Part shown: piece after piece, positions 8,915 through 24,587 of the stretch
Numbering within the stretch: position 1 is the first letter of the stretch
How the letters are laid out: each line of letters begins with the position of its first letter
Source: Actinomyces culturomici
GTDB lineage: Bacteria > Actinomycetota > Actinomycetes > Actinomycetales > Actinomycetaceae
Reading direction: 5' to 3'
DNA length: 44,273 bases
Assembly (NCBI RefSeq): GCF_900499005.1
Contig: NZ_LS991318.1
Location: forward strand, 151,267-195,539
Notes under the pieces: model-generated
Databases searched by the model: none
Told to the model about the DNA's origin: nothing
What the model saw: only the letters and a program-made list of their open reading frames with translations
Program-made: the position numbers and the translations under genes

Positions 8915-8945
8915 TTGACAATTTAGATAAGGGTGTCCTTAACTA
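8915..8945 (+). promoter_or_regulatory. Promoter with DtxR/IdeR-type iron box
   Basis: A -35 TTGACA (8915-8920) is followed by TTAGATAAGGGTGTCCTTA (8923-8941), which agrees with the DtxR consensus TTAGGTTAGSCTAACCTAA at 13 of 19 positions. A -10 such as TTAACT or TAACTA lies at 8939-8945. A repressor here would cover the whole promoter. Precedes the DUF4418 gene; the region is sharply AT-richer than its surroundings. Confidence 0.65.
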
Positions 8946-9001
8946 TATCTGTCCAACCTCATCAGATATGTGCGCCCGCCAAAGAACAGAGGAGCGAACC
9001 C

Positions 9002-9418
9002 GTGTCGAAGAAGAATCTGGCGCTCGCCGTCGCCCCAGCAGCCTTGAGCCTCCTCCTCGCTCTTGGGGTCACGACGGTCTTCACCGCCTGTCACCGCCGC
9101 GAGGACGGCACCTGGATGCACTGTCACCAGTGTCAGAACACGGTCGCTGCGGGAGGGGTCGGCCTCGTCGCCCTCTTCGGTTCTGCCGCTTTCGTGAAGA
9201 ACAAGGGCATGAGAATTGGTCTTCAGTTCCTCGCCGTCATCGCGAGCGTTGTCCTCTTCTTCGTCCCCGGCGGAATCTGCCCTATGTGCATGATGAAGAA
9301 TATGCGCTGCTACACCGTCTTCCAGCCCTTCACCAGGGTGATGACGGTTCTTATCGCCCTGTCCGGCGCCGGGGCGCTCACCATCTCGGCGAAGCGCGGC
9401 AAGCAGGTCGTCGCCTGA
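9002..9418 (+). CDS. DUF4418-type Cys-rich small membrane protein
   Basis: A 138-residue protein with about four membrane helices. Helix 1 (residues 6-29) is followed by Cys30 and by HCHQC (Cys41-x-x-Cys44); a second motif, CPMCMMKNMRC, follows helix 3. These paired cysteines and histidines could bind metal or carry redox chemistry on the outer face. Pattern and neighbours match the DUF4418 family, often found next to FtsX-like permeases in iron-related clusters (from memory of the family). GTG 9002 follows GAGGAG at seven bases and was preferred over an upstream in-frame start at 8933 that falls inside the promoter. First gene of module 1 and directly under the iron box. Confidence 0.8.
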   Translation: MSKKNLALAVAPAALSLLLALGVTTVFTACHRREDGTWMHCHQCQNTVAAGGVGLVALFGSAAFVKNKGMRIGLQFLAVIASVVLFFVPGGICPMCMMKNMRCYTVFQPFTRVMTVLIALSGAGALTISAKRGKQVVA

Positions 9419-9419
9419 G

Positions 9420-10310
9420 GTGAGGGCGCGTGCCATCGCGCTTCCCGCCTCTCTCACGAGGGGGAAACGGTGTGTGATCGTCGTCGGTGCCGCGCTGCTC
9501 GCCCTCGTGCTCGCCCTCTTCTGGATCCACTCCCTTCGGATGGGGGCCGCCTATCGGGAGGCCCTCCGCCTTGAGAAGGCCGGTGAGCACGAGGGCGCCT
9601 ACGACGCCTATTCGCACCTCGGCGGATATGCCGACTCGGCCGAGCGCCTTCGCGCGATGATCGAAGCCGACCCCGCTCTTCCCTATCGTTCGGTGAAGAA
9701 GGGGGAGCTCATCGAGTTCGGCGCCTTTGAACAGGACGGCGATGCCGCGAACGGGCCGGAGCCGATCCACTGGATCGTCCTCGACAGGATCGATGAGAGA
9801 CTACTGCTGCTCAGCCGCGACTCCCTCGACGCCGCCCCCTACCATCGCGTCCCCTTCGAGCCCGTCACCTGGGAGCACTCCGACCTCAGGAGATGGATGA
9901 ACTCGGACTTCCTCGCAACGGCCTTCAGCGAGAAGGAACTCTGCCTCGTTCCGACGGTCGAGATCCCCAACACCCCGCAGTCCGCGACCGGCACCGCCGC
10001 GGGTCCCACGACGAGGGACCGGGTCTTCGCACTGAGTGAGACCGAGGCCTCGATCTACATCTCCGACGCCGTTGAGCGCGCCAGCCTCGGTTCGGCCGCC
10101 CTGTCTGCGGCGGTCGTGGCCGACGATTTGCCCGCTAACGAAGAGGGGTACGCTGACTGGTGGTTGCGCTCCCCGGGCACCTACGACTTCACGGCGCAGT
10201 ACATCGACCGTGAGGGCGTCCGTCATGGGTCTGGCGCCGCCGCCGATGCGACCTACGGGGTTCGCCCGGCTCTGTGGCTCGATACGAGGGCGGGAGGCGC
10301 CGACCGATGA
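9420..10310 (+). CDS. Membrane-anchored DUF6273-type protein
   Basis: A 296-residue protein with a positively charged N-terminus, one membrane helix (about residues 18-40), a short helical segment resembling a TPR-like unit (YREALRLEKAGEHEGAYDAY), and a C-terminal globular domain. That domain has the pattern of DUF6273: IEFGAFEQDGD, IHWIVLDR, LRRWMNSDFLATAFSEKE, WWLRSPG, GVRPALWL. The fold is related to formylglycine-generating-enzyme/C-type-lectin-like domains; no catalytic role is known to me. Topology suggests the domain is outside the cell. GTG 9420 starts one base after the previous stop; GTG 9474 has a better ribosome site (GAGGGG) but would delete the charged anchor. Its end overlaps the next gene as ATGA, so it is part of the module 1 operon. 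Confidence 0.72.
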   Translation: MRARAIALPASLTRGKRCVIVVGAALLALVLALFWIHSLRMGAAYREALRLEKAGEHEGAYDAYSHLGGYADSAERLRAMIEADPALPYRSVKKGELIEFGAFEQDGDAANGPEPIHWIVLDRIDERLLLLSRDSLDAAPYHRVPFEPVTWEHSDLRRWMNSDFLATAFSEKELCLVPTVEIPNTPQSATGTAAGPTTRDRVFALSETEASIYISDAVERASLGSAALSAAVVADDLPANEEGYADWWLRSPGTYDFTAQYIDREGVRHGSGAAADATYGVRPALWLDTRAGGADR

Positions 10311-11500
10311 GGCGCGGCCGTCTTTCGCTGAGCGCCCTCCCGCTGAAGAGCGCGAGGGCGCACCCGCTGCGGACGATGATCCTCGTGGTACTCGTGTTCG
10401 CGCAGGCCGCCTGCGCTCTGACGGGTCTGCTCCTCGTGCAGTCGACGAGGGCGGAGCTCTCCCTCGCTCGAGACAGATTGGGCGCGGACGTCGTCGTCTA
10501 CCCCTCGGCGGGTTTCCTGCAGCTCGACAAGTCCTGCGTCCAGATGGTCGGCAGCCCCGTCCTTTTCCACAAGGAGCGCTCGAGTCTGTCGCGTCTGAGT
10601 TCCAACGAGGACATCGATCGCATCGCCTATCAGCTCTACCTGTCGGACACGAGCGGTGGGGGAGAACCCGTCTGGATCATCGGTTTTGATCCGCTCTCCG
10701 ACTTCGTCGTCGCGCCTTGGCTGCGCGAGGGGGCCGATCACACGGTGCCGGAGGGGACCGTCGCGGTGGGCGCCGATGCTGCGGTGTCGGAGGCGGGAGC
10801 TGTGACCCTCTTCGGCGAGGAGTGGCCGGTCGACTCTCATCTCGAGAGGACCGGCACCGAGTTGGACAAGGCGGTGTTCGTGCCGATTGACTCCCTCGAG
10901 CGGGTGATCTCGGCCGCGGTCGCGGCGGGTGACGAGTCCTTCGCCTCTGTCGACCCGCATGCGGACTACTCGGTCGCGCTTCTGCGACTCAAGGAGCGCT
11001 CGGACGCGGAGTCGGTGACGAACTGGATCAACCTCTACGTCCGACGCGTGACGGCCGTCCATTCGGAGGAGGCGCTCGCCGGAACCGCCTCGTCGATGTC
11101 CGCGCATTCGTCGATTCTCGCCGGGGCCGCGGCACTGACGTGGCTGATCCTGCTCGGGGCGCTCGTCGTCGCCCAGTCGGCCCTGTTCAACGAGAGGCGC
11201 CGCGAGGCGAACGTATGGAGGATCCTCGGGGCCTCGAGGGTCCTCGTCGAGCGCGTCCTGTTGTGGGAGACGCTCCTGGTCCACGCCTCGGGGGCTCTGC
11301 TCGGGGCGCTCGTGGCGGCAGGGATGGCGGCCCTCATCGGCGTCGCGCCCATGAAGGGCGAACTCGTCGCTCCGGGCAACCTTGCCGCGCTCGCCGCAGC
11401 GGCGATCGCGATGAGCCTTCTCGTCGCCTGGCTCGGAGCGAAGGTCGCTCTTCCGAGGCTGTTGCGCGCCGCGGACGACTCGATGCTGCTGACGACATAG
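10307..11500 (+). CDS. FtsX/MacB-like ABC permease, module 1 first copy
   Basis: 397 residues with the MacB/FtsX layout: one N-terminal membrane helix (about 22-44), a large extracellular domain, and three C-terminal helices from about residue 270. Near the start of the extracellular domain lies LGADVVVYP, the signature seen in all four FtsX-like permeases of this window. ATG 10307 overlaps the upstream stop and is preceded by GGGAGG. Such permeases usually work with a cytoplasmic ATPase to move or release substrates at the outer face rather than as classic importers. Pairs with the next gene and with the ATPase at 12726. Substrate unknown; the iron box upstream suggests iron. Confidence 0.82.
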   Translation: MRRGRLSLSALPLKSARAHPLRTMILVVLVFAQAACALTGLLLVQSTRAELSLARDRLGADVVVYPSAGFLQLDKSCVQMVGSPVLFHKERSSLSRLSSNEDIDRIAYQLYLSDTSGGGEPVWIIGFDPLSDFVVAPWLREGADHTVPEGTVAVGADAAVSEAGAVTLFGEEWPVDSHLERTGTELDKAVFVPIDSLERVISAAVAAGDESFASVDPHADYSVALLRLKERSDAESVTNWINLYVRRVTAVHSEEALAGTASSMSAHSSILAGAAALTWLILLGALVVAQSALFNERRREANVWRILGASRVLVERVLLWETLLVHASGALLGALVAAGMAALIGVAPMKGELVAPGNLAALAAAAIAMSLLVAWLGAKVALPRLLRAADDSMLLTT

Positions 11501-11515
11501 GAAAGAGACGGGACC

Positions 11516-12724
11516 ATGCTTTCGATGAGGGCGCTGCCCCTTCGCAATCTGCGCGCGTGTCCGATGCGCACCTTCGCGCTGTTCGTCTTCGCGGCGCTCA
11601 TGGCCTCGGCCGTCTTCGGGGGAACCGTCCTCGTGCAGGGGATCCGCGGAGGCCTGGCGACGGTGGAGGCGCGTCTCGGAGCCGATGTGCTCGTCACGCC
11701 GAGCGATGCCGGTGGGGACTTCGACGCCCGGACCTTCCTCCTCGAGGCCGAGCCGGGATATTTCTACATGGATGCGGGGGTCGTTGCGCGGGTCCGGGAG
11801 GTCGCCGGCGTGGAGAAGGCGTCCCCCCAGATCTTTCTCGCATCCGCGAGGGCGAGCTGCTGCTCGGGGAGGTATCAGGTCATCGCCTTCGATCCGGACA
11901 CGGACTTCGCCATTCAACCGTGGATCGCCGACACGACGGGCAGCGTGGAGATCGGCGAGATGGACGTTCTCGTGGGAGCGAACGTCGCCGTACCGGTTGA
12001 CGGATCCTTCAAGATCTACGGTCGGACTCTCAGAGTCGTCGGTCAGTTCGATCCGACGGGCTCGACCCTCGACAATGCCGTGTACGCGAACTTCGACACG
12101 GGGAGGAGCCTCATGGCGGCCTCGTTGGAGAAGGGGCTGAACAAGTATCGGGACGCCGATCCGGGGAGCGTCGTGTCGTCGGTCCTCGTCCGCGTCGCCG
12201 ACGGCGAGAATGCGGAGGCGGTCGCCCAGCGGATCCGTGAGAGCGTGGACGGGGTCTCCGTTTCGACGGCGAAGAGCATGGTCTCAGGGATCTCGGAGAC
12301 GCTCGTGCGGACGTCGCGCGCGGTCGCGCTGCTCGTGGGGGTCGTATGGGCGGTCGGATCGGGGATGAGCGTCCTCGTGTTCACGATGATGATTCATGAA
12401 CGGGCTCGTGAGTTCGCCCTCCTCAGGGCGATGGGAATGAGTCGTTCACGGCTCAGGCTCCTCGTCCTCGCAGAGTCCGCGTCTGTCGATCTGACCGGTG
12501 CGCTCGCGGGCGTCGTCGTGTCGGGGGTTCTGCTCTCGGCCTTCCGGGTGCTGGTCGGTCAACTGCTCGGCATCGGGTTCCTCATGCCAGGGCCGTTGGA
12601 GTCGGCGCTCGTCGCCCTCGCCGCGCTCCTCGTCGCCCTGGCCGCAGCGGGGGTCGCGGGGTGGATCTCGATTCGTCGTATCGGCGCGATGGACGCGGGT
12701 CTCGTCCTCAGGGAAGGGGAATGA
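11516..12724 (+). CDS. FtsX/MacB-like ABC permease, module 1 second copy
   Basis: 402 residues, same layout as its upstream partner: N-terminal helix after a charged LRNLRACPMRT segment, extracellular domain with LGADVLVTP, three helices from about residue 260 with the cytosolic coupling sequence EFALLRAMGMSRSRL. A CC pair (SARASCCSGRY) sits in the extracellular domain, followed by IAFDPDTDF; the first permease has a comparable IIGFDPLSDF, so the two domains are related. The exposed cysteines could bind metal or exchange disulphides. Starts 15 bases after the previous gene with GGAAAGAG as ribosome site, and ends overlapping the start region of the ATPase gene. Confidence 0.84.
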   Translation: MLSMRALPLRNLRACPMRTFALFVFAALMASAVFGGTVLVQGIRGGLATVEARLGADVLVTPSDAGGDFDARTFLLEAEPGYFYMDAGVVARVREVAGVEKASPQIFLASARASCCSGRYQVIAFDPDTDFAIQPWIADTTGSVEIGEMDVLVGANVAVPVDGSFKIYGRTLRVVGQFDPTGSTLDNAVYANFDTGRSLMAASLEKGLNKYRDADPGSVVSSVLVRVADGENAEAVAQRIRESVDGVSVSTAKSMVSGISETLVRTSRAVALLVGVVWAVGSGMSVLVFTMMIHERAREFALLRAMGMSRSRLRLLVLAESASVDLTGALAGVVVSGVLLSAFRVLVGQLLGIGFLMPGPLESALVALAALLVALAAAGVAGWISIRRIGAMDAGLVLREGE

Positions 12725-12725
12725 C

Positions 12726-13445
12726 ATGACTCTTGAAACGAAGGGCGTGAGGAAGGACTTCCCGCGTGCGCGGGGAGGAGCGATGTTTACGGCGGTCGAG
12801 CCCGTGGATCTTCGCCTGGTCCCCGGCGAGCTGCTGGTGATTCGCGGGCGTTCGGGAAGTGGTAAGAGCACGCTGTTGTCGATGTTGGCGGGGATCCTCG
12901 CGCCGACGGAGGGAGTCGTCCTGATCGACGGCGAGGATCTTTACGCCCTTCCGGATGCCGAGGCCGCATCGCTGCGCAACGAGAGGATCGGCGTGATCCC
13001 TCAGGGGCATACCGCGCTGCGCAGCCTATCGGTGGTGGAGAACGTTCTCCTCCCGTCAATCATCCGGTCACGAGTCGAGGGAGAGGGAATCCGTGAGCGG
13101 GCGGAGGCGCTGCTGGAGGGCGTTGATCTGGTGGCTCTGGCCGATGCTCGTCCCAATGAGCTTTCGGGAGGGGAACTGCGTCGGATGGCGGTGGCGCGAG
13201 CGCTAGTGATGCGACCGGAGACGGTTCTCGCCGACGAACCGACTGCGGGGCTGGATGCGGGGAACGCCCAGGTGGTGCTGAGGATGCTCCGGCGGGCGGC
13301 GGACGAGGGCGCGGCGGTGCTCGTGGTGACGCACGAGGACGAGGCGGTCCGTTTCGCCGATCGTGTGATGACGATGGACAGTGGGGTCCTCTGCGTCGGG
13401 GCTCCCCGAGCCGAGGCGCTCCCGCCTGCGAAGATCTCAATTTGA
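12726..13445 (+). CDS. LolD/MacB-type ABC ATPase, module 1
   Basis: 239 residues with all ABC motifs: Walker A GRSGSGKST (41-49), Q-loop IPQGHTALRSLSV, signature LSGGE, Walker B TVLADEPTAGLD and switch VVTHE. It is of the type that partners FtsX/MacB permeases. ATG 12726 lies one base after the permease stop and follows GGGAAGGGG. Last gene of module 1; no terminator is visible before the next iron box, so read-through into the FTR1 gene is possible. It would power the two permeases just upstream (inference from order). Confidence 0.93.
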   Translation: MTLETKGVRKDFPRARGGAMFTAVEPVDLRLVPGELLVIRGRSGSGKSTLLSMLAGILAPTEGVVLIDGEDLYALPDAEAASLRNERIGVIPQGHTALRSLSVVENVLLPSIIRSRVEGEGIRERAEALLEGVDLVALADARPNELSGGELRRMAVARALVMRPETVLADEPTAGLDAGNAQVVLRMLRRAADEGAAVLVVTHEDEAVRFADRVMTMDSGVLCVGAPRAEALPPAKISI

Positions 13446-13475: not shown

Positions 13476-13494
13476 TGAGGTTAGACTAAGCTAA
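13476..13494 (+). promoter_or_regulatory. DtxR/IdeR-type iron box before FTR1
   Basis: TGAGGTTAGACTAAGCTAA agrees with TTAGGTTAGSCTAACCTAA at 16 of 19 positions, the best match in the window. It lies in an AT-rich island (13440-13495) 82 bases before the FTR1 start. The -35 and -10 could not be fixed with confidence; TTGATA at 13442 and TATTCT at 13462 are too close together. Confidence 0.75.
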
Positions 13495-13575: not shown

Positions 13576-15174
13576 GTGAGCGCATCGATATCCTCGACGA
13601 CAGCACTGACGAGGCGCCCCTGGATCCTCCTCGCCCCCTTCATCCTCGCCCTTCTCATCGGGGTCCTCGCGCCGGCCGCTGCACGAGCCGAGGGCGCTGA
13701 CTCCGGCTGGGGCGCGGTCGCGAAGGAGATGGGTGAGATCCTCGATGAGGCCGAGAAGGCCTATCTGGGCGGAGACATCGAGGCGGGCAAGGACGGGGTG
13801 AACACCGCCTACTACCGGCGCTATGAGACCCTTGGTTTCGAGAAGCAGGTCATGGCCCGCATCTCGGGGAATCGGGTTTCCACCGTCGAGATGGAGTTCT
13901 CCCTCGTCAAGAAGGCGATGAGTGATCGCGATGACGCCGCCGTCGCCCAGCACATCGCCGATCTCAAGAACTACCTGCGCGAGGACGCCAACACCCTCGA
14001 CGGTGTTCGAGCGGCCGCCGCTTCGAGCGATTACAGCCCAGGAGCCTGGGGGCGCGTCGCGAAGGAGATGGGTGAGATCCTCGATGAGGCCGAGAAGGCC
14101 TATCTGGGCGGAGACATCGAGGTGGGCAAGGACGGGGTGAACACCGCCTACTACCGGCGCTATGAGACCCTTGGTTTCGAGAAGCAGGTCATGGCCCGCA
14201 TCTCGGGGAATCGGGTTTCCACTGTCGAGATGGAGTTCTCCCTCGTCAAGAAGGCGATGAGTGATCGCGATGACGCCGCCGTCGCCCAGCACATCGCCGA
14301 TCTCAAGAACTACCTGCGCGAGGACGCCAACACCCTCGACGGCTACGTCGGCGAAGCGACTGCCCCCACGAGCCCCTGGCTGTCGGGCTTCCTCCCCTCG
14401 CTCCTCGTCATCCTCCGGGAGGGCATGGAGGCGATCCTCGTCGTCGCCGCGATCCTCGCCTATCTCGCCAAGGCCGGGCACAAGGACAAGTCGAAGGTCG
14501 TATGGATTGGAGTCGCCCTCGCCCTCGTCGCCTCCGCGGTCCTCGCCGTCCTCTTCTCTGCGTTCGCGAATCTCGCGGGCGCCAATCAGGAACTCCTCGA
14601 AGGGGTCGCCGCCCTCTTCGCGGTCGCCATGCTCATCTGGGTCTCGAACTGGATGGTCTCCAAGTCCTCCAACGAAGCCTGGGACCGCTACATCAAGGAT
14701 CAGACGGACGCCTCTCTCAACCACGGCTCCCTCCTCGGCCTGGCCGCCATCGCATTCCTCGCGGTCCTTCGTGAGGGGGCAGAGACGATCCTTTTCTACG
14801 TGCCGGTCATCTCCCATGCGGGCGCGGCTGTCGGATACGTGTGGATCGGCATGGGCGTCGGCCTCGCCATCCTCGCCGTGGTCTACTTCCTCATCCAATT
14901 CGCCGCCCTGAGGATTCCACTGCGCCCCTTCTTCGCGGTCACATCGCTCCTGTTGGCGGTCATGGCCGTCACCTTCACCGGATCGGGCATCAAGGAGCTC
15001 CAGGAGGCAGACGTCCTGCCCCTGACGCCCCTCAGCGGCCTCCCGACCATCGACCTCTTGGGGATCTACCCCCGAGTGGAGAACCTCTCCGCACAGGCAG
15101 TGGTTCTCATCATCATCGTCGGCCTGTACCTCTGGGGGAGGCGCCGCATGCGCCGCGCGCTCCCCGAGAAGTGA
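13576..15174 (+). CDS. FTR1-family iron permease with duplicated N-terminal domain
   Basis: 532 residues. Signal peptide (about 1-37, ending ARA), then two nearly identical ~96-residue extracellular helical domains, then seven membrane helices. The two iron-pathway motifs are present: REGME at 281-285 and REGAE at 399-403. FTR1/FetM proteins move iron across the membrane together with the P19/FetP protein encoded next. The extracellular domain (EKAYLGGDIE, KDGVNTAYYRRYE, GFEKQVMARISGNR) is the usual N-terminal part of bacterial FTR1, here present twice. GTG 13576 follows GGAGGA at six bases and gives a clean signal peptide; the earlier GTG at 13510 does not. First gene of module 2, under the best iron box. 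Confidence 0.93.
   Translation: MSASISSTTALTRRPWILLAPFILALLIGVLAPAAARAEGADSGWGAVAKEMGEILDEAEKAYLGGDIEAGKDGVNTAYYRRYETLGFEKQVMARISGNRVSTVEMEFSLVKKAMSDRDDAAVAQHIADLKNYLREDANTLDGVRAAAASSDYSPGAWGRVAKEMGEILDEAEKAYLGGDIEVGKDGVNTAYYRRYETLGFEKQVMARISGNRVSTVEMEFSLVKKAMSDRDDAAVAQHIADLKNYLREDANTLDGYVGEATAPTSPWLSGFLPSLLVILREGMEAILVVAAILAYLAKAGHKDKSKVVWIGVALALVASAVLAVLFSAFANLAGANQELLEGVAALFAVAMLIWVSNWMVSKSSNEAWDRYIKDQTDASLNHGSLLGLAAIAFLAVLREGAETILFYVPVISHAGAAVGYVWIGMGVGLAILAVVYFLIQFAALRIPLRPFFAVTSLLLAVMAVTFTGSGIKELQEADVLPLTPLSGLPTIDLLGIYPRVENLSAQAVVLIIIVGLYLWGRRRMRRALPEK
13717..14342 (+). repeat. Near-identical 287-bp tandem duplication inside the FTR1 gene
   Basis: Bases 13717-14003 and 14056-14342 differ at only two positions (GCG/GTG giving Ala/Val, and ACC/ACT, silent). 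The period is 339 bases (113 codons), so the frame is kept; the 52-base spacer is not repeated. Confidence 0.93.
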
Positions 15175-15215: not shown

Positions 15216-15842
15216 ATGAAGCGCTCACTCAGCACCATCGGCGCGGCCGTCGCGGCCGTCGCCCTGATGACCGGCCTCTCGGCATGCTCCTCCCAGAGCG
15301 GACAGACCGCGAAGCCCGCAGAAATGGCCGCTCAGTCCAGCGAAGCCGCCGCGCCCGGCGAGGGCGCCGGTTTCGACGAATTCCCCCTCGGCGACGACGT
15401 CTTCTCCGGCCCCCTGAAGATCTCCGGAGTCTACTTCCAGCCGGTCGACATGGAGCCCCAGGTCCAGACCCCCGCCAAGGACTCCTCGATGCACATCGAG
15501 GCCGACATCTCCGCCGTCGAAGGCAACGAGCTCGGCTACGGCGTCGGCGACTTCATCCCGGGCCTCAAGGTCGACTACAAGATTCTCGGCGCCGACGGTA
15601 ACGCCGTACTCGAGGGGACCTTCATGCCGATGAACGCCTCCGACGGCCCGCACTACGGCCTCAACCTCCCGAAGCTCGACGCCGGCACCTACACGGTTCA
15701 GTTCATCGTCCATTCCCCTGAGGAGAACGGCTGGCTCCTCCACACCGACGAGACCACGGGCGTCAAGGGGCGGTTCTGGACCGAGCCGATCGTCGCGGAG
15801 TTCAAGGATTGGAAGTGGGATCCCTCCGCTGTCGAATGGTGA
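15216..15842 (+). CDS. P19/FetP-type iron-transport lipoprotein
   Basis: 208 residues. Lipoprotein signal with lipobox LSAC (Cys24), an Ala/Ser-rich linker, then a P19/Tp34-like immunoglobulin-fold domain: GPLKISGVYFQPVDMEP, SSMHIEADI, GYGVGDFIPGL, FMPMNASDGPHYG, FIVHSPEENGW. The Met/His residues of MHIEAD, GPHYG and VHSP fit the copper- and iron-binding site known for P19 of Campylobacter and FetP of E. coli. In those systems the protein delivers iron to the FTR1 permease, the gene just upstream here. In this Gram-positive it is lipid-anchored rather than periplasmic. ATG 15216 is preceded by GGAG. The 3' end is followed by a perfect hairpin. Confidence 0.93.
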   Translation: MKRSLSTIGAAVAAVALMTGLSACSSQSGQTAKPAEMAAQSSEAAAPGEGAGFDEFPLGDDVFSGPLKISGVYFQPVDMEPQVQTPAKDSSMHIEADISAVEGNELGYGVGDFIPGLKVDYKILGADGNAVLEGTFMPMNASDGPHYGLNLPKLDAGTYTVQFIVHSPEENGWLLHTDETTGVKGRFWTEPIVAEFKDWKWDPSAVEW

Positions 15843-15941: not shown

Positions 15942-17204
15942 ATGATCGAACAGATGAGCCAGGCGAGCCTCGCGCTGCTCCTCGCCGCCCTCGCCGCGGG
16001 AGCGGCCATTGGCGCGTTGCCGGCGTGCGAACGCGGCAGATCCGGCAGAGCCGCTCGGAGATGGGCGATCGGCATCGGCATCGGCGCCGGGCTCTTCTCC
16101 GCCTTCGTCCTCACCCTCGTCAACACCCTCGCGCCGCGCGCGGTCAATCGTCAAACGGTCGCCTTGTGGACGCTTCCCATCGCCGTCCTTCTCGCGATCG
16201 CTTTCGTCTCGCTCTTGGCCGTTCGGGCGAGACGCCCGCCGACCGCGCGCCTCGATTCCGCCATTCTCCTCGCGATGAGCGCCTATCTGGCGCTCATCGT
16301 CTTCCGCGCCGCGCCCACGGCGATGGCTCAGGTGGTCATGATGTTCCCCCGGGGAATCGAGGTCTTCGCGACGAGTACGATGCTCGCTCTCGTCGGCTAC
16401 GTTCTCGGTTGGCTCCTCCCCTTCGTCCTCGGCGCCCTCTCTTGGAAGATCGTCTCCCTCGGTCGACGCAGGATCTGGCCGACCGCCCTCGTTGTGACCG
16501 TCCTCGCCCTTACTCACATCATGCTCGTCGTGCGCATCCTTCAGGCGCAAAGGGTTATTTCGATGTCGAACGAGGCTTTCACCGTGCTCTCCTGGCTCAT
16601 CAACCACGAGTCCGTCTTCCCGATCGGCGCGATGTGCGTTCTCCTCCTCGTCGCCGCCCTCGTCGTCCGCGAAGGACGATCCTTGCCCCGAGAGGGCTCC
16701 AACCCCGCCGAGGGGCGCCTCTACCGCGCCCGCGCACGCGTCTGGAAGACGATGGCCGGGGCGGCGGCGGGCGGCTACCTGTGCGGCGCGCTGCTGATCA
16801 CCCTCGGCGTCGTCGTCGGCTCCGCCGAGGTCGAACTCTCCGAACCGGAGTCCTACTCCGTCGTCGAGGAGCGCGCGGTCATCAACATCGCGGACATCTC
16901 CGACGGCCATCTCCACCGCTACGCGTACACGACGTCTTCGGGGGTCGAAGTCCGCTTCATCGTCATTCAGAAGGCAGGCGCCTCGTTCGGCGTCGGCCTC
17001 GATGCCTGTGAGATCTGTGGGCCGACCGGCTACTACGAGAAGGACGGGAAGATCATCTGCAAGCTCTGCGAAGTCGCAATGAACATCGCAACGATCGGAT
17101 TCAAGGGCGGCTGCAATCCCATCCCGATCGAGTACGAGGTTTCCAACGGGACGCTGACGGTCCCGCTGTCGGTCCTCGAGGCGAATGCGAGCGTCTTCGC
17201 ATGA
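15942..17204 (+). CDS. DUF2318-type Cys-rich membrane protein
   Basis: 420 residues: about seven to eight membrane helices through residue ~290, then an extracellular domain with CEICGPTGYY, CKLCEVAMN and GGCNPIPIEY. The four CxxC cysteines plus the GGCNP cysteine are the DUF2318 pattern, thought to hold a metal or Fe-S centre. A homologue is part of the Campylobacter P19 locus and of Fls systems (family knowledge), where it is proposed to pass electrons or iron. ATG 15942 follows a GAGGATGA ribosome site. Sits between P19 and the permease pair, the same order as in those systems. Confidence 0.88.
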   Translation: MIEQMSQASLALLLAALAAGAAIGALPACERGRSGRAARRWAIGIGIGAGLFSAFVLTLVNTLAPRAVNRQTVALWTLPIAVLLAIAFVSLLAVRARRPPTARLDSAILLAMSAYLALIVFRAAPTAMAQVVMMFPRGIEVFATSTMLALVGYVLGWLLPFVLGALSWKIVSLGRRRIWPTALVVTVLALTHIMLVVRILQAQRVISMSNEAFTVLSWLINHESVFPIGAMCVLLLVAALVVREGRSLPREGSNPAEGRLYRARARVWKTMAGAAAGGYLCGALLITLGVVVGSAEVELSEPESYSVVEERAVINIADISDGHLHRYAYTTSSGVEVRFIVIQKAGASFGVGLDACEICGPTGYYEKDGKIICKLCEVAMNIATIGFKGGCNPIPIEYEVSNGTLTVPLSVLEANASVFA

Positions 17205-17246: not shown

Positions 17247-18518
17247 ATGTTCCTGAGAATGCTGGCGGGGGCTCTGGCGCGCAGGGGCGACCGACACCTC
17301 CTCATCGCTGTGACGGTCGCCCTCGGCGCCGCCGTGGCCACGTCGATGCTCTCGGTGATGTTCGACGTCGGGGACAAGGTCAATCAGGAATTGAAGTCCT
17401 ACGGCGCGAACATCGTCGTGAGGCCCCGAGGCGCGGCGGTCCTCCAGGATCTCTACGGCGCTCAGCCCCCCTCGCAGTCCTTCCTCCGCGAGGACGAGCT
17501 CGGCCGGATCAAGACGATCTTCTGGACGTACAACATCCTCGACTTCGCCCCGCTGCTCTCCGTCGACGCCGTCGGCCCCTCGGGGGAGCCCGTCGAGGTC
17601 ACCGGAACCTGGTTCGATCACCACCTCGACCTGGAGACCGAAGAGACGCTCAATACCGGCCTCGACAAGTTGCGGGCCTGGTGGACGGTCACCGGGCAGT
17701 GGATCGGAGACGAGGACCCGGAGGGCGCGATGGTCGGTGAAGGCTACGCCGAGGCTCACGGACTTGCGATCGGCGATCCTGTGACCCTGAGCAGAGACGG
17801 GCGCTCCGTCGAGGTGACGATCCGCGGGATCTTCGAATCGGGCGACGAGGCCGATTCCGGGGTCTACACGAACCTGGCCATCGCCCAGGAGCTTCTCGGA
17901 GAGCCCGGAGCCGTCGGCTCGGTCGAGGTGTCCGCCCTGACGACCCCGGATAACGACCTGGCGCGGAAGGCGGCGAAGAACCCGGAGTCCCTGTCCGTGT
18001 CCGAGCGCGAGACCTGGTACTGCACCGCCTACGTCTCCTCCATCGCCTACCAGATCGAAGAGGTCATGACCGACTCCGTGGCCAGGCCCGTGCGGCAGGT
18101 CGCCGAGTCGGAAGGGACCATTTTGGAGAAGACTCAGCTCCTCATGCTCCTTGTCACCGTCCTCGCCCTCGTCGCCTCCGCGCTGGCCATCGCGAATCTC
18201 GTCACCGCGAACGTCATGGAGCGCTCCGGGGAGATCGGTCTGATGAAGGCGATCGGAGCGAAGAACCATTCGATCATCGCTCTGCACCTCAGCGAGATCG
18301 CTCTGGTCGGCCTCGTCGGAGGGGCCCTCGGCTACGGGGGCGGGATCGGACTCGCGCAGGTCATCGGGCAGATCGTGTTCGGCGCCTCGATCTCCTTCAC
18401 TCCGGTCGTCCTGGTGCTCGTGTCGCTCCTCGTCCTGCTCGTCGTCCTCAGTGCCTCGATCCCGGCCATCCGCTACCTTCTGCGGCTCAATGCCGCAGAA
18501 GTCCTTCACGGAAGGTGA
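17247..18518 (+). CDS. FtsX-like ABC permease, module 2 first copy
   Basis: 423 residues with MacB/FtsX layout: N-terminal helix (about 18-40), extracellular domain beginning SYGANIVVRP, and three helices from about residue 295, with the cytosolic coupling segment EIGLMKAIGAKNHSI. Homologous in placement to the first permease of Fls iron systems. A single Cys is in WYCTAYVSSI. ATG 17247 follows GAGAGGA. It is a different lineage from the module 1 permeases, closer to the next gene (SYGANLVVSP). Predicted to pair with the next permease and the ATPase at 19698. Confidence 0.88.
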   Translation: MFLRMLAGALARRGDRHLLIAVTVALGAAVATSMLSVMFDVGDKVNQELKSYGANIVVRPRGAAVLQDLYGAQPPSQSFLREDELGRIKTIFWTYNILDFAPLLSVDAVGPSGEPVEVTGTWFDHHLDLETEETLNTGLDKLRAWWTVTGQWIGDEDPEGAMVGEGYAEAHGLAIGDPVTLSRDGRSVEVTIRGIFESGDEADSGVYTNLAIAQELLGEPGAVGSVEVSALTTPDNDLARKAAKNPESLSVSERETWYCTAYVSSIAYQIEEVMTDSVARPVRQVAESEGTILEKTQLLMLLVTVLALVASALAIANLVTANVMERSGEIGLMKAIGAKNHSIIALHLSEIALVGLVGGALGYGGGIGLAQVIGQIVFGASISFTPVVLVLVSLLVLLVVLSASIPAIRYLLRLNAAEVLHGR

Positions 18519-18523
18519 GAGAG

Positions 18524-19687
18524 ATGAAGCGCCGCACGATGTTCTGGCGGATGGTCTCCTCGTCAATCCTGAGGAGGCGCTCTCGCGTCCTCATCGCCGT
18601 TCTGGCCGTCGCCATCGGTGCCACGACCCTGTCGGGCCTGGCGACCATTGCTCTGGAAGTCCCCGCTCAGCTCGCCCGAGAGGTCCGCTCCTACGGAGCG
18701 AACCTCGTGGTCTCCCCGGTTTCGGGGAACGATTCCATGAGCGGTGAGTCCCTCAAGAAGATCCCGGGGTTCGTGCCGAAGGGCGCCCTCGTCGGTTCGG
18801 CGGCCTTCGACTACGAGGCGGTCACCGTCAACGATCGGCCCTATGTCGCCGCGGGAGCCGATCTGGAGTCGGTGCGCGCGATGAACCCGTACTGGTACGT
18901 CGAGGGGGAGTGGCCGCAAGGACCCGACGAAGTGCTGATCGGCGAGGAGATCGCGGACACGATCGGCGCTTCGGCCGGGAAGAGGATCTCCGTCGTCCGC
19001 CTCGAGGAGGCGGACGAGCACGCCCAGTCCGGCGGGGTCGAGGCGAAGACGAGCGTCGACTTCACCGTATCCGGGGTCCTCAAGACCGGGGGTACGCAGG
19101 ACTCCTACATGTACATGACCTCGCAGGCGATCTCCGCCCTGACCGGCGTCGAGGCGCGCGCGACGGTCGCGGAGTACTCGATCGCTGTCGAGGGCCCGGT
19201 CCTGGAGAGCGTCGTCGCGGCCATCAACGACTCCGTGCCCGGAGTGTCGGCGCAGGCCGTCAAGCGCCTCGCGCAATCCGACTCCGGCGTCATCTCGATG
19301 CTGCGCTCCCTGCTCGTCATCATCGCCGGCATCGTCCTCGTCCTCACCCTGATCGGGGTGTCCACGACGATGGTCGCCATCGTCGCCGAGAGGCGCAACG
19401 AGATCGGCCTGCGCAAGGCCCTGGGCGCGACTTCGCGCTCCATCGCCCTCGAATTCATCGGCGAAGGCGTGCTCCTCGGTCTGATCGGTGGTCTGATCGG
19501 CGTCGTCCTCGGGTACGGTCTCGCCTCGGGGATCAGCTACAACGTGTTCCACCGGAGCATCGCCCTTCCTCCGTTGATCGCTCTCATTACGGTCCTCGCA
19601 TCCGTGGCCGTCGCCGTCCTCGCCTGCCTGCCCCCGGTGCGCCGAGCCGCCGCCGTCGACCCCGCCCTCGTCCTACGCGGAGAATGA
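18524..19687 (+). CDS. FtsX-like ABC permease, module 2 second copy
   Basis: 387 residues, MacB/FtsX layout with SYGANLVVSP after the first helix and the coupling segment EIGLRKALGATSRSI before the last helices; ends with the PALVLRGE tail typical of these permeases. ATG 18524 has GAAGG at eight bases; a GTG at 18515 that overlaps the previous stop (GTGA) is in frame and would add three residues. Partner of the permease at 17247; together with the ATPase they form the ABC part of module 2. Confidence 0.88.
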   Translation: MKRRTMFWRMVSSSILRRRSRVLIAVLAVAIGATTLSGLATIALEVPAQLAREVRSYGANLVVSPVSGNDSMSGESLKKIPGFVPKGALVGSAAFDYEAVTVNDRPYVAAGADLESVRAMNPYWYVEGEWPQGPDEVLIGEEIADTIGASAGKRISVVRLEEADEHAQSGGVEAKTSVDFTVSGVLKTGGTQDSYMYMTSQAISALTGVEARATVAEYSIAVEGPVLESVVAAINDSVPGVSAQAVKRLAQSDSGVISMLRSLLVIIAGIVLVLTLIGVSTTMVAIVAERRNEIGLRKALGATSRSIALEFIGEGVLLGLIGGLIGVVLGYGLASGISYNVFHRSIALPPLIALITVLASVAVAVLACLPPVRRAAAVDPALVLRGE

Positions 19688-19697
19688 AGGAAGAACC

Positions 19698-20438
19698 ATG
19701 ACCGACACGATGCCGACGCCCCTCCTCGATCTGGAGGGGGTCTCGAAGATCTACGGCGACCTCCACGCGCTCGACGACGTTTCCTTGACCATCGGGCGCG
19801 GGGAATGGGTCTCCATCGTCGGGCCCTCCGGATCGGGCAAGACGACCCTGATGAACATCGTCGGGTGCATGGACACCGCGTCCAAGGGGCGGGTCCGTCT
19901 CGACGGCCAGGACATCTCGGATCTCACGGGGGACGAGCTCACGGAGATCCGCCGCTCCACGATCGGGCTCGTCTTCCAGCAGTTCCACCTCATCGGGCAT
20001 CTCACTGCGCTGGAGAACATCATGGTCGCCCAGTACTACCACTCGATGCCCGATGAGAAGGAGGCGATGGAGGCCCTCGACAGGGTGGGCCTCGCCGATC
20101 GCGCCACCCATTTGCCCCGTCAGCTCTCCGGCGGCGAGCAGCAGAGGGTGTGTGTGGCGCGCGCGCTCATCAACTACCCGAAGCTCATCCTCGCCGATGA
20201 GCCGACCGGCAACCTCGATGAGACGAACGAGAGGATCGTCCTCGACCTGTTCGGGCGACTCCACGAGGAGGGGACGACCCTCATGGTCGTCACGCACGAC
20301 GCCCTGGTCGCCGGCCGGGGCCAGCGCGAGATCGCCCTCGATCACGGGCGCATCTTCAAGGAGACGTGGCACGATTTCGATGCGCACGACGAGGGGCCCG
20401 AGTCGGGAACGGGGAAGAGCAAGGTGGATCTGCGATGA
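19698..20438 (+). CDS. LolD/MacB-type ABC ATPase, module 2
   Basis: 246 residues with Walker A GPSGSGKTT (42-50), Q-loop VFQQFHLIGHLTALEN, signature LSGGEQQR, Walker B LILADEPTGNLD and switch VVTHD. Belongs to the ATPases that drive FtsX/MacB permeases, matching the two genes just upstream. ATG 19698, ten bases after the permease stop, with AGGAAG upstream. Its stop overlaps the FMN-binding gene start (ATGA), so the two are translationally coupled. Confidence 0.95.
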   Translation: MTDTMPTPLLDLEGVSKIYGDLHALDDVSLTIGRGEWVSIVGPSGSGKTTLMNIVGCMDTASKGRVRLDGQDISDLTGDELTEIRRSTIGLVFQQFHLIGHLTALENIMVAQYYHSMPDEKEAMEALDRVGLADRATHLPRQLSGGEQQRVCVARALINYPKLILADEPTGNLDETNERIVLDLFGRLHEEGTTLMVVTHDALVAGRGQREIALDHGRIFKETWHDFDAHDEGPESGTGKSKVDLR

Positions 20439-20986
20439 ACGCGAAGCGCGGGGCCCTGAGGGCCGGGATCGTGGGACTCGGCGCGATGATGCTCGCCGCA
20501 TGCGCCTCCTCGCCGGGCGTTGACATGAGCGTGCCGATGAAGGACGGGGAGTGGAAGGGCCGTTCGAACGCGGACGATCAGGGGGCGATCGGGGTCATCA
20601 CGATCACGGTCGAGGGCGGCGACATCACGAGCACGAGCTACGAGACCCTCCAGGCGAACGGAGCGGACAAGGACGCCGACTACGGGAAGAGCTCCTCCGG
20701 GGAGGTCTTCAACGAGGACTACTACGAGAAGGCGCAGAGGGCCGTCGAATCCTTTGCGCGCTACTCGCAGGAGCTCACCGAGAAGGACGATCCCGCGAAG
20801 GTCGATGTCGTGTCGGGCGCGACCGTCGCGCACCGCCAGTTCATCCAGGCCGCGATCCGGGCGATCTCCGCGGCCCAGGGGGTCGACGACTCGGCGGCGA
20901 ACGGCGTGGAGATCCCGGGGCTGGAGGAGTCGACCCACCTCGGGGACACGGATCTCGACAAGGACCTCGGCGGGACGGACCGCTAG
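20435..20986 (+). CDS. FMN-binding-domain lipoprotein
   Basis: 183 residues. Lipobox LAAC with Cys23, then a single FMN-binding domain. VVSGATVAHRQF carries the flavinylation motif [S/D]GA[T/S], with Thr130 as the residue to which FMN would be linked by phosphoester. Other domain features: DGEWKGRSNADDQGAIGVITI and VESFARYSQEL. Such lipoproteins carry electrons outside the membrane and receive FMN from ApbE, whose gene follows directly. ATG 20435 overlaps the ATPase stop. In Campylobacter-type P19 loci this place is taken by thioredoxin-like proteins (from memory), so a flavoprotein may do the reduction here (inference). Confidence 0.88.
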   Translation: MNAKRGALRAGIVGLGAMMLAACASSPGVDMSVPMKDGEWKGRSNADDQGAIGVITITVEGGDITSTSYETLQANGADKDADYGKSSSGEVFNEDYYEKAQRAVESFARYSQELTEKDDPAKVDVVSGATVAHRQFIQAAIRAISAAQGVDDSAANGVEIPGLEESTHLGDTDLDKDLGGTDR

Positions 20987-20988
20987 CG

Positions 20989-22053
20989 GTGGGGGAGCGT
21001 CCGCTCGTCGAATTCGAGGTCGGCGAGGGCGGGGGCGCGCGTTCCTGGCGAGTGTCCTTTCCCGCGATGGGCACGCGTGTTGACCTCATCGGAGTAGGCG
21101 GGGATCTCTCGCGCATCACGCGCAGAGCGTGCCGACTGGTCGCCGAATGCGAAGCGCTGTGGTCCGTCTTCCGCTCGGACTCGGACGTCTCACGGATCAA
21201 CTCCGGCGAGGGGTGGTGCGAAGTCGATCCGCGTACGGATTCGTTGCTCCTCGATTCCGTTGTGCTGTCGGAGGCGACCAGCGGGGCCTTCACCCCGCTG
21301 GCGGGGGCGCCTGTGCGACTGTGGGACGTCAAGGGCGCTCGAAGGTCCTTCCTCGCGAACGGGCGCGTGCCCGCGGCCCCCTCCCAGGAGGAGATCGACG
21401 GGGCGGTTCGCTCGTGCGATCCGGCGCTCCTGGAACGCGACGAGGCCGCTCGCTGGCGTCTTGTGCGGGCCGCGAACGAGGGAATTGTACCGTCGAGGGG
21501 GCCGGCGCTCGACCTCGGCGCCATCGCGAAGGGGGCGACTGCCGACGCGGTGCGCGACGCGGTCGTGGAGGTGGGGGCTGAAGGGGTTCTCGTCTCTCTC
21601 GGCACATCGTCCATCGCCGCTTTCGGGCGTCGTTGGGACGGGAGACCGTGGACGGTCGGCCTGCGGGAGCCGGGCGCGGCGGAGAACGAGTGGGCGGGCA
21701 GCGTCGAGCTCGCCTCCTCATCGTCTCTGTCGACGTCGGGTGACTACGCGCCCGTATCGTTCGACGCTGGTCGGTCGCTCCCGGAGGCGCTCGCTCATGA
21801 GACTTTCGATCCGAGGACGGGGCGGCCGAGCGAATCGGGCGTTCTTCAGGCGAGTGTGATCTGCGCGTCGGGAGTCATGGCGGAGGTCCTTTCGACGGCC
21901 CTTCTTGTCGCCGGTGAGGGCTGCGTCGACGCTGTTCGCTTGGACGCCTGGGGGAGAACGAGGGGGATCTCGACCCGGTGGGAGCACGTCGTCGTGCGCG
22001 GGGACGGGATCGCGTTCTCCAATGGGGCGGGGTGGGCGGCGAAAGAGGTGTGA
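20989..22053 (+). CDS. ApbE-family FAD:protein FMN transferase
   Basis: Transfers FMN from FAD to a Thr/Ser of FMN-binding domains. The 354 residues carry the family marks: FPAMGTRVDL near the N-terminus, LVAECEALWSVFRSDSDVSRIN, DLGAIAKGATAD (FAD and metal site), SLSTSGDY, FDPRTGRPS, and VMAEVLSTALLVAG, where the usual Asp of ADALSTA is Glu. No signal peptide or lipobox was seen, so it may act inside the cell or leave by another route. GTG 20989, two bases after the FMN-protein stop, is weakly supported by a ribosome site. The only visible substrate is the FMN-binding lipoprotein next door. Last gene of module 2. Confidence 0.88.
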   Translation: MGERPLVEFEVGEGGGARSWRVSFPAMGTRVDLIGVGGDLSRITRRACRLVAECEALWSVFRSDSDVSRINSGEGWCEVDPRTDSLLLDSVVLSEATSGAFTPLAGAPVRLWDVKGARRSFLANGRVPAAPSQEEIDGAVRSCDPALLERDEAARWRLVRAANEGIVPSRGPALDLGAIAKGATADAVRDAVVEVGAEGVLVSLGTSSIAAFGRRWDGRPWTVGLREPGAAENEWAGSVELASSSSLSTSGDYAPVSFDAGRSLPEALAHETFDPRTGRPSESGVLQASVICASGVMAEVLSTALLVAGEGCVDAVRLDAWGRTRGISTRWEHVVVRGDGIAFSNGAGWAAKEV

Positions 22054-22131: not shown

Positions 22132-22356
22132 GTGCTGCTTTCGAAGTGCCCGAGGAACAGTCGGGGAAGACTCACCCGAATCGACGTCGAGCCCGCATTC
22201 CGGCTCCGCCTCCAGGAACTTGGCCTGAGGCCGGGCACGGAGTTCTACGTCGCCAACCGCGCCGCCTTCGGAGGGGTCGTCCTCAACATCGCGGGCACGC
22301 GCGTCGCCGTCGACGCGAAGTCGGCCAAGCGCATCGACGTGGAGGTGGCCGCATGA
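22132..22356 (+). CDS. feoA: Ferrous iron transport protein A
   Basis: 74 residues forming a FeoA SH3-like domain: LTRIDVEPAFRLRLQELGL, PGTEFYVANRAAFGG, VLNIAGTRVAVDAKSAKRI. FeoA is a small cytoplasmic protein needed for FeoB-driven Fe2+ uptake. The GTG at 22132 directly follows the iron box and no ribosome site is seen, consistent with a leaderless message. Its stop overlaps the feoB start (ATGA). First gene of the feo operon. Confidence 0.9.
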   Translation: MLLSKCPRNSRGRLTRIDVEPAFRLRLQELGLRPGTEFYVANRAAFGGVVLNIAGTRVAVDAKSAKRIDVEVAA

Positions 22357-24587
22357 GCTGCCCGAAGTGCGCCCCCTCCGTCCCCTCCTCCTCCGGCCCG
22401 TTCCGCTCCGGCGCCACCGCCCTCGCCGATCCGCGCCCGATCGAGCACTCCGCCCGCCTCGCCGTCGCCCCGACGATCGTCCTCGTCGGCAACCCCAACG
22501 TCGGGAAGTCGACGCTCTTCAACCTTGTCACCGGCGCCCGCCAGGCCGTCGTCAACGCGCCGGGCACCACCGTCGAGGTGATGAGCGGCGCCTGGGCGTC
22601 GATCGGCGCGCGCGTCCTCGACCTTCCGGGCACCTACTCGCTCATCGCGAACTCCCTCGACGAGCAGGTCGTCGTCGACACCCTCGCCGGAGCCCCCGGG
22701 TCCTTCACGGATCCGACCCGCGGTCGGAGCATCGACCTCGCCCTCGTCGTCCTCGACGCGACGGCGCTCACTCGCTCCCTCTACCTCCTCGGCCAGGTCG
22801 CCCGCACGGGCCGTCCGGTCGCCGCGGTCGTGACGCTCTCCGACGTCACCGCCCACGAGGGCGAGGCCCTCGACGTCGCGGCCCTGGCGAAGACGCTCGG
22901 CATCCCGGTGATGGCGATCGATCCGCGCTCGCACAAGGGCGTCGAGGGGCTCGACGACATGGTGCGCGCCGCCCTGCGGACCCGCCCGCGCGTCCAGGGG
23001 ATCGAGCCCGACCCCTCGGCCCCCGGCTACAACCCGACCGCCGCCCTAGGCGCCGCCGAGCGCGCCGCTGACCCGCGGACGAACGCCGACCTGCTCGATC
23101 CGGCCGGCGACTGCGGGTGCGGTCGTGGATACGACTGCCAGATGCGCGAGCCCGCACCCGACTCCTCCGCGGCCGCCGTCGCCGCGTCGGTCAAGCGCAG
23201 GGACGCCCTCGCCGAGGCCGACGACCTCTTCACCTGGGTCGAGGGCGTCGAGTCCGGCGCCTTCGGCGCCCGCGCCGATCAGGCGAGGATGTCGCGCTCG
23301 GACAAGATCGACCGCCTCCTCCTCCATCCGGTCGTCGGGATCCCCGTCTTCTTCGGCCTCATGTGGCTCCTCTTCAAGGTTGCCGGCGAATGGGTCGGTC
23401 CGGTCCAGGACTTCTTCGATTCGCTCTTCACCTCGGAGGACGCGGGCGCCGTCTCGCTCGCGAACCTCGTCAACGCGGGCCTGGGCGCCCTCGGGTGGGA
23501 GCACACGTGGCTCCACGGGATCCTCGTCGGCGGCATCTGCACGGGGCTCGGCGTCGTCGCCTCGTTCCTCCCGCTGATGTTCGTCATCTTCCTCATGATC
23601 TCGATCCTCGAGGACTCCGGCTACATGGCGAGGGCCGCGTTCCTCGGCGACCGCGTCATGCGGGCGATCGGCCTCGACGGGCGCGTCATCATGCCGCTCA
23701 TCATGGGCTTCGGCTGCAACCTCCCGTCGCTCGCCGCGATCCGGACGCTCCCGAACGCGCGCCAGCGACTCATCACCGCGCTCATCACGCCCTACACCTC
23801 GTGCGCCGCGCGCCTCACGATCTACCTCATGATCGCGAGGATCTTCTTCCCCGACAATGCGGGCACGGTGATCTTCGCGATGTACGTGTTCTCCCTCGTC
23901 CTCGTCGTCGTCGCGGCCCTCGTCCTCAAGCCCTTCCTCAACAAGGACGCCGCCGACGCTCCGCTCATGCTCGTCCTCCCGGCCTATCAGATGCCGCGGA
24001 TCCTCGTCACGGTGAAGAACACGTGGATGCGCGCCTGGGCGTTCGTCAAGGGCGCGGGCAAGATCATCGTCCTCATGACGCTCGTCGTCTGGTTCATGTC
24101 GGCGATCCCGGTCGCCGGCGGCTACTCCTTCGCCGACGAGAACCTCCCGATGGAGGACTCGCTCTACGGCGCGACCGCCCAGGCGATCGTCCCCGCCTTC
24201 GAGCCCGCCGGCTTCGGCGACTGGCACATGACGGGCGCGCTCATGACGGGCTTCGTCGCGAAGGAGACCGTGATCTCCTCGATCGTCACCTCGTACAACC
24301 TCGATCCGAAGACCGCGGGCGGCGACGCGGAGGACGGCGGCTCCGACCTCGGCGACCTCCCGGCGCTCATCACCTCGACGTTCGCGAAGACCGCCGGGGA
24401 CGCCGCGCCGCTCGCCGCCTTCGCGTTCATGGTCTTCGTCCTCGCGTACACGCCGTGCCTCGCGACGGTCGCCGAGCAGGCGCGCCAGATCGGCGGACGG
24501 ATGACCGCGGCGGCCGTCGGCGTCCAGCTCGTCGCCGCCTGGATCCTGGCGGTCGCGATCTTCCAGATCGGCAGGCTCTTCCTGTGA
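22353..24587 (+). CDS. feoB: Ferrous iron transporter FeoB
   Basis: 744 residues. Cytoplasmic G domain with G1 GNPNVGKST (46-54), G3 DLPGTYSL, and a G4 region VTLSD where the usual Asn of NxxD is Thr. The membrane part has the two Gate regions: MGFGCNLPSLAAIRTL with its conserved Cys, and PYTSCAARLTIYLM. FeoB imports Fe2+ across the inner membrane in a nucleotide-dependent way. Two additions stand out: a Cys-x-x-Cys at the N-terminus (MSCPKC) and DCGCGRGYDC between G domain and membrane, which could sense or hold metal. Overlaps feoA (ATGA) and the feoC-like gene (GTGA). Confidence 0.96.
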   Translation: MSCPKCAPSVPSSSGPFRSGATALADPRPIEHSARLAVAPTIVLVGNPNVGKSTLFNLVTGARQAVVNAPGTTVEVMSGAWASIGARVLDLPGTYSLIANSLDEQVVVDTLAGAPGSFTDPTRGRSIDLALVVLDATALTRSLYLLGQVARTGRPVAAVVTLSDVTAHEGEALDVAALAKTLGIPVMAIDPRSHKGVEGLDDMVRAALRTRPRVQGIEPDPSAPGYNPTAALGAAERAADPRTNADLLDPAGDCGCGRGYDCQMREPAPDSSAAAVAASVKRRDALAEADDLFTWVEGVESGAFGARADQARMSRSDKIDRLLLHPVVGIPVFFGLMWLLFKVAGEWVGPVQDFFDSLFTSEDAGAVSLANLVNAGLGALGWEHTWLHGILVGGICTGLGVVASFLPLMFVIFLMISILEDSGYMARAAFLGDRVMRAIGLDGRVIMPLIMGFGCNLPSLAAIRTLPNARQRLITALITPYTSCAARLTIYLMIARIFFPDNAGTVIFAMYVFSLVLVVVAALVLKPFLNKDAADAPLMLVLPAYQMPRILVTVKNTWMRAWAFVKGAGKIIVLMTLVVWFMSAIPVAGGYSFADENLPMEDSLYGATAQAIVPAFEPAGFGDWHMTGALMTGFVAKETVISSIVTSYNLDPKTAGGDAEDGGSDLGDLPALITSTFAKTAGDAAPLAAFAFMVFVLAYTPCLATVAEQARQIGGRMTAAAVGVQLVAAWILAVAIFQIGRLFL

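Follow-up and report, generated by a model that had tools for sequence, protein, structure and literature searches.

A FetM-type permease gene with two near-identical modules

The window, meaning the whole 44,273-nucleotide stretch of Actinomyces culturomici DNA analyzed here, contains a FetM-type permease gene at positions 13576–15174 on the plus strand, as are the parts of the gene, the regulator box and the downstream genes up to ApbE listed below. It encodes a 532-aa protein composed of a signal-peptide-like start, two tandem modules and an FTR1 membrane domain, and its GTG start codon lies 6 bases after GGAGGA. The FTR1 domain matched PF03239 (E = 1.2e-28, residues 296–500 of a 554-aa reading) with 100.7 bits against a curated cut-off of 25.3, and the protein carries two REGxE motifs, REGMEA (14416–14433) and REGAET (14770–14787), both features being those of an FTR1/OFeT membrane domain. 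In an alignment of 14 proteins, the R, E, G and E of the first motif are invariant throughout.

The two extracytoplasmic modules consist of 101 residues each, lie in the same open frame and share 96% protein identity. Copy 1 (13702–14004), the putative recipient of gene conversion, and copy 2 (14041–14343), the putative donor, are separated by a 12-residue linker (14005–14040, VRAAAASSDYSP), which forms a conserved SPGxWG sequence together with the residues that follow. Near-identical tracts of 287 bases occupy 13717–14003 in copy 1 and 14056–14342 in copy 2, 339 bases apart, and differ at two positions: 13784/14123 (C/T, Ala/Val) and 13884/14223 (C/T, silent). These are the two copies, two differences and single amino acid change described in the original prediction. 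A repeat finder returned the slightly extended pair 13707–14003/14046–14342 (98%), and Tandem Repeats Finder reported 13709–14342 with a period of 339 (98%). The repeat DNA was found in no third place in the genome at E ≤ 0.001 when the best 40 of 170 first-look candidates were scored. Elsewhere on the contig, two more tandem pairs of 138 bases, 98–100% identical, are located at G000:C19:17048–17322 and 261656–261930, and no tRNA genes were found in these pairs. Outside the window, G000:C19:90463–94209 holds an array of roughly 58 64-base units, whose 36-base repeat starts with GCTGGGAATCAGTCACC; it looks like a large CRISPR array.

Downstream of the permease gene are genes for a P19/FetP-type protein (Fe2+ transport protein; 15216–15842, PF10634, E = 4.1e-50), an FtrD-like membrane protein in the position of C. 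jejuni FetA (15942–17204, PF10080, E = 4e-31), two MacB/FtsX-type permeases (17247–18518 and 18515–19687, both PF02687 and PF12704), an ABC ATPase (19698–20438, PF00005) and an ApbE-type flavin transferase (20551–22053, PF02424, E = 1.8e-48). The succession of P19, FtrD-like protein, two FtsX-type permeases and ABC ATPase is the FetMP/P19-type gene order, and on these grounds the gene is predicted to encode the permease component of an iron uptake operon of the FetMP/P19 type. A gene for a FeoB ferrous iron transporter (22146–24587) is located immediately 3′ of ApbE, so that two iron uptake systems adjoin. Directly upstream of the permease gene, a second cluster (8933–13445) encodes a DUF4418 protein, a DUF6273 protein, two FtsX-type permeases and an ABC ATPase. 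An ATPase similar to the latter adjoins the permease gene in three other loci (L004, L005 and L021), and given this proximity the upstream cluster may be part of the same iron system.

A DtxR/IdeR-type iron-regulator box (13476–13494) is situated about 80 bases 5′ of the gene start, matching at 16 of 19 positions what we take to be the consensus. It was the sole match in the window at ≤3 mismatches, and 100 shuffles gave none. When ≤4 mismatches were allowed, three of the 18 other genus loci (L009, L011 and L019 of L004–L021) and several outgroup loci also had such a box.

Clusters of the FetMP-FetABCDEF or P19-cFtr1 type are described from C. jejuni, E. coli, Y. pestis and a Salmonella plasmid in the available portions of three reports (PMC10783030; PMC6083913; PMC7285068). 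The window cluster has the FTR1 permease, P19, the FtrD/DUF2318-like protein, the two MacB/FtsX-type permeases and the ABC ATPase in the same order, and it matches the fetMP-fetABCDEF order of C. jejuni, as given in the available text, except for ApbE and FeoB (PMC10783030; PMC6083913). An upstream iron-type regulator box is likewise shared, of DtxR-like type in the window and of Fur type in C. jejuni according to the same text. The next genes differ, being ApbE and FeoB in the window and thioredoxins in C. jejuni in that account. The combination of P19 and FTR1 beside the flavin transferase ApbE resembles the P19 clusters with flavinylation in the accessible part of PMC8238504; the FMN-binding gene that this part assigns to many Gram-positive P19 clusters has no counterpart among the window ORFs scanned. 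Among the ORFs scanned near the permease, neither an FMN-binding nor a thioredoxin family was found, and ApbE was present.

The FTR1 membrane domain and the two REGxE motifs are also shared with EfeU of the EfeUOB system. The window permease nevertheless stayed well short of the EfeU equivalog cut-off (145.6 of 255 bits) and of that for TIGR00145 (152.4 of 303.8 bits). Neither EfeO nor EfeB was found among the neighbours scanned. In seven genus genomes (G009, G015, G018, G021, G025, G028 and G033; loci L023–L029), the best match was a module-less, EfeU-like FTR1 permease with 36–41% identity, which suggests that one type of permease was swapped for another within the genus.

Module number and the age of the tandem arrangement

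A profile search of 213 genomes of the family, one per species, at E ≤ 0.001 revealed the module in 64 of them, with two modules in 61, one in three (G008, G010 and G161) and three in none. Two Propionibacterium records also have two modules. Farther away, single modules were found at six loci (L038–L040 and L042–L044) from Desulfovibrio, Synergistaceae and a Deltaproteobacteria MAG, and in a Fusobacterium protein. L037, which reaches the edge of its locus, resembles L041 and possibly lost its first module; it is counted as single in some analyses. The FetM protein of an E. coli plasmid (L078, NZ_CP145637.1) has three tandem modules, the second without the glutamate of the YE motif. The window permease has two near-identical modules, as against three mutually diverged ones in the plasmid protein and one in the Fusobacterium protein. 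The available text of the FetM literature does not describe the three tandem modules, nor do the accessible portions of the FetMP/P19 reports describe the modules themselves (PMC10783030; PMC6083913; PMC7285068). A class-wide module profile search matched 1 of 394 genomes, the one under study, and therefore says little about the spread outside the family.

Within the genus, L020 and L021 have a single module, which in L021 joins a copy-1-like start to an end with R93. In the FTR1 tree, the single-module L021 clustered with S. cardiffensis, L005 and the window (99/95), and the single-module A. mediterranea branched as sister to the 17 remaining proteins in the larger genus clade. These two proteins show that the module number also contracts. 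The earlier claim that the repeat could expand or contract holds between species, with one module in L020 and L021 and three in the E. coli plasmid FetM.

The linker SPGxWG precedes copy 2 in all 17 two-module Schaalia proteins and in neither of the two single-module genus proteins. Among 12 outgroup two-module proteins it was found in seven, two others have the near forms SDGKWG and SNGKWG, and three (L069, L075 and L076) have no SPGxWG of any kind. Since the linker is kept in 17/17 Schaalia, the tandem arrangement is old, with homogenization inside it. Taken together with the two modules in 61 of 64 family genomes, the kept linker indicates that the window does not hold a new module duplication.

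Probable recurrent exchange between the copies in Schaalia

Outside the genus, copy 1 and copy 2 of the same protein share 19–39% of residues (median 26%) in all 43 two-module genomes, whereas in the 17 two-module Schaalia they share 66–96%, the window being highest (96%), followed by S. cardiffensis (91%), L005 (86%) and L006 (81%). The original prediction held that it would be refuted if all relatives carried two equally identical copies; instead, copy identity varies widely among the two-copy relatives. G011 (L022/L069) is a genus member whose two modules are only 25–26% identical to those of the window, and it was excluded from the 17-genome analyses.

In the module tree, the two copies were sisters in the window (99/95), S. 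cardiffensis (100/92), L005 (95/94) and L006 (99/97), and nine outgroup copy 1 sequences formed a separate clade (100/99). L069, L075 and L076, whose long-branched copy 1 did not join the remaining outgroup copy 1 in this tree, were excluded from the AU-test trees; the weak first module of L041 was excluded from the trees, and L032–L034 were dropped as duplicates of L004, L010 and L020. The AU test rejected a single clade of all copy 1 (p = 0.015) and one clade of the four copy 1 of the window, S. cardiffensis, L005 and L006 (p = 0.008), and did not reject one clade of the copy 2 of these same four (p = 0.062). Over the full module, both copies were nearer to each other than to the best orthologue in these 4 of 17 genomes; the pattern of concerted evolution, with within-species copies closest at silent sites too, is seen there and, over the full module, is lacking in the other 13. 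In L008–L019, an orthologue was nearer to at least one of the copies; several of the species concerned are near-identical.

The core of the module (codons 14–79) and its ends were treated separately. The core DNA tree paired the copies species by species, with support of 99/96 in the window, 100/99 in S. cardiffensis, 100/98 in L005 and 100/100 in L006, and more weakly in L007 (90/77). The S. georgiae species pair had all four of its copies in a single clade (100/100), L008 and L012–L018 grouped by copy, and L009 and L019 were unresolved. In the tree of the module ends, the copies separated everywhere, including L005 and L006, except in the window and S. cardiffensis, where they were still paired. 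By our reading of the core and ends trees, this implies at least five independent homogenizations.

Few silent differences separated the copies in the core, a depletion that had no comparable counterpart between species. Silent differences in the core versus the ends amounted to 0/62 versus 6/20 in L005, 4/63 versus 8/14 in L006 and 3/49 versus 10/17 in L018, and this contrast, a mosaic of tracts, was significant at an uncorrected p < 0.05 in 8 of 17 genomes, some of which are close relatives. Pooled between-species controls differed between core and ends by ≤0.14 in silent sites. The contrast was not significant in the window (p = 0.25), because nearly the whole module is homogenized there. 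Over codons 6–100, 1 of 90 silent codons differed between the window copies versus 15 of 50 for the closest module among 18 other genus genomes (binomial p = 4.5e-13). The dS between the window copies was 0.077, and between the window and S. cardiffensis it was 1.51 for copy 1, 1.23 for copy 2 and 0.62 for the FTR1 domain. Fourfold-site identity was 94% between the window copies versus 44–49% in the module between the window and S. cardiffensis, which bears out the premise of the original prediction that third positions are free to vary. These sites point to DNA exchange, not constraint, as the source of the likeness of the copies.

The direction of exchange was read from nine columns that are diagnostic of one copy or the other among the 16 two-module proteins of the other Schaalia, some of them non-exclusively (I13, for example, occurs in 5 of the 16 other copy 1). 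Copy 1 of the window has the copy-2 state at six of the nine columns (4, 8, 13, 90, 93 and 97); at the remaining three (1, 2 and 5) it departs from the usual state of either copy. The six copy-2 states suggest that copy 2 was probably the donor in the window and that the tract spans nearly the whole module.

Taken together, we consider it likely, with good confidence, that the tandem is old and that gene conversion in Schaalia, mainly from copy 2 to copy 1, has repeatedly re-homogenized copy 1 of a FetMP/P19-type permease. This reading is tempered by the facts that only 4 of 17 genomes give the pattern over the full module and that the linker is less general outside the genus. The original prediction had offered a very recent duplication or ongoing gene conversion; the former falls with the 61 of 64 two-module genomes and the linker in 17/17, and the latter is favoured by dS, silent sites, trees and diagnostic columns.

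Among the alternatives, unequal crossing-over, in which three-copy intermediates shrink back to two in place of non-reciprocal conversion, would lead to the same end state. The variable module number (one in L020, L021, L038–L040, L042–L044 and Fusobacterium; three in the E. coli plasmid FetM) is in keeping with it, as is the composition of L021, which looks like the result of a deletion between repeats. On the other side, no three-module genome was detected at E ≤ 0.001 among the 213 family genomes, and the copy-specific ends and homogenized cores of L005 and L006 are more simply produced by short conversion tracts. We thus regard crossing-over as an unlikely, though not negligible, route. 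If a single module had been tandemly duplicated very recently in the strain or species, the mere two differences in 287 bases would be accounted for; single-module relatives (L020 and L021) exist in the genus, and short near-identical tandem pairs (138 bases, twice, 98–100%) occur elsewhere on the contig. This explanation was set aside as very improbable, since the linker and the two-module arrangement are widely shared in the family: the copies flank the SPGxWG common to 17/17 two-module Schaalia and 7/12 outgroup two-module proteins, two modules are present in 61 of 64 module-bearing family genomes, and a fresh copy is unlikely to rebuild the linker or to have a different module start.

An assembly or consensus error might be suspected from an assembly of 19 contigs and a repeat that roughly equals or exceeds the length of a short read. 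Two copies are, however, expected from the relatives, including the one-contig genomes G024 and G027 with homogenized cores, and the copies have different flanks and two distinguishing bases; moreover, repeats are more commonly collapsed than expanded in assembly. Such an error was set aside as hardly to be expected. Purifying selection alone, without any exchange, could draw on the well-conserved core protein across Schaalia and is refuted by the silent sites (1/90 versus 15/50; fourfold identity 94% versus 44–49%), which leaves it next to no probability.

The probable gene conversion within the permease gene resembles the concerted evolution of prokaryotic paralogues treated in the available part of PMC6053082, in that within-species copies are closer than orthologues at silent and coding sites. 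The units in that part are full-length duplicated genes, whereas here they are two adjacent modules of one protein, whose ends are copy-specific in most genomes. The permease gene is also a concise example of concerted evolution at the level of domains: beyond keeping the copies alike, conversion appears to restore conserved sites that copy 1 has lost elsewhere.

Conserved residues and putative role of the modules

The combination of E42, R58 and E63 (module numbering) was found in copy 1 of 0 of 43 non-genus genomes versus 17 of 17 Schaalia. Copy 2 has all three residues in 43/43 non-genus genomes, and its E47, D95 and D100 are likewise invariant there. In the genus, E42, R58 and E63 are present in both copies of all 17 Schaalia and in both single-module proteins, and they were also found in 8/8 distant modules, namely, the six single-module proteins, the edge-cut L037 and the second module of L041. 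The residue distribution therefore indicates two competent-type modules in Schaalia as against a single one in the other members of the family, a natural contrast that points to E42, E47, R58, E63, D95 and D100. On this evidence, conversion would have left Schaalia with two competent-type modules in its FetMP/P19-type iron operon. The permease is of a known type, and the notable point is the genus-specific regain of conserved sites in a recurrently converted old tandem.

Searches of Pfam, NCBIfam and solved structures returned no convincing relative of the module and no metal-binding family in these libraries, yet the permease that carries the modules, one to three in number, belongs to an iron system present in several phyla. 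The best PDB sequence matches, designed chlorophyll proteins (E = 1.6e-5 over the whole chain), were rejected as they consisted only of several short helix stretches of 4.6–7.3 bits each. Among the matches listed from the open-licence literature on the permease or on within-gene exchange, none dealt with these modules, judged by title and the start of the abstract. Metal binding by the modules is plausible. From the location on an iron permease and the invariant acidic residues, we infer that the module may capture iron or receive it from P19; a part in P19 docking or in permease assembly would account for the conservation of the residues equally well.

These observations allow a stepwise mechanism to be proposed. 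Two tandem modules of about 101 residues ahead of the FTR1 domain are the ancient arrangement. In the rest of the family, copy 1 would have diverged from copy 2 until some 26% identity was left and would have lost its conserved charged residues, with copy 2 keeping them. Within Schaalia, recombination between the two adjacent homologous copies, presumably by RecA-type conversion, would have overwritten copy 1 and then re-homogenized it repeatedly, possibly under selection for two competent modules. The last tract in the window would extend over nearly the whole module (codons ~6–100) and date from after the split from every sampled relative. The modules, for their part, may take part in iron capture or in the hand-over of iron from P19 to the permease. 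We give an even chance to the more specific proposal that a decayed module 1 was overwritten by its intact neighbour in the Schaalia ancestor and that conversion then kept both competent, which would have raised the number of working collecting or hand-over modules from one to two, a genus-specific gain by conversion and not by duplication. The first overwriting could also have been a loss of the old copy 1 followed by a fresh duplication of copy 2, against which the kept linker argues.

Elsewhere the reading frame of the permease gene is seemingly interrupted, between the modules and the FTR1 part in Winkia neuii (L046/L073, the latter from G210) and between the two modules in L091 (G065), which could reflect a sequencing error or a decayed gene.
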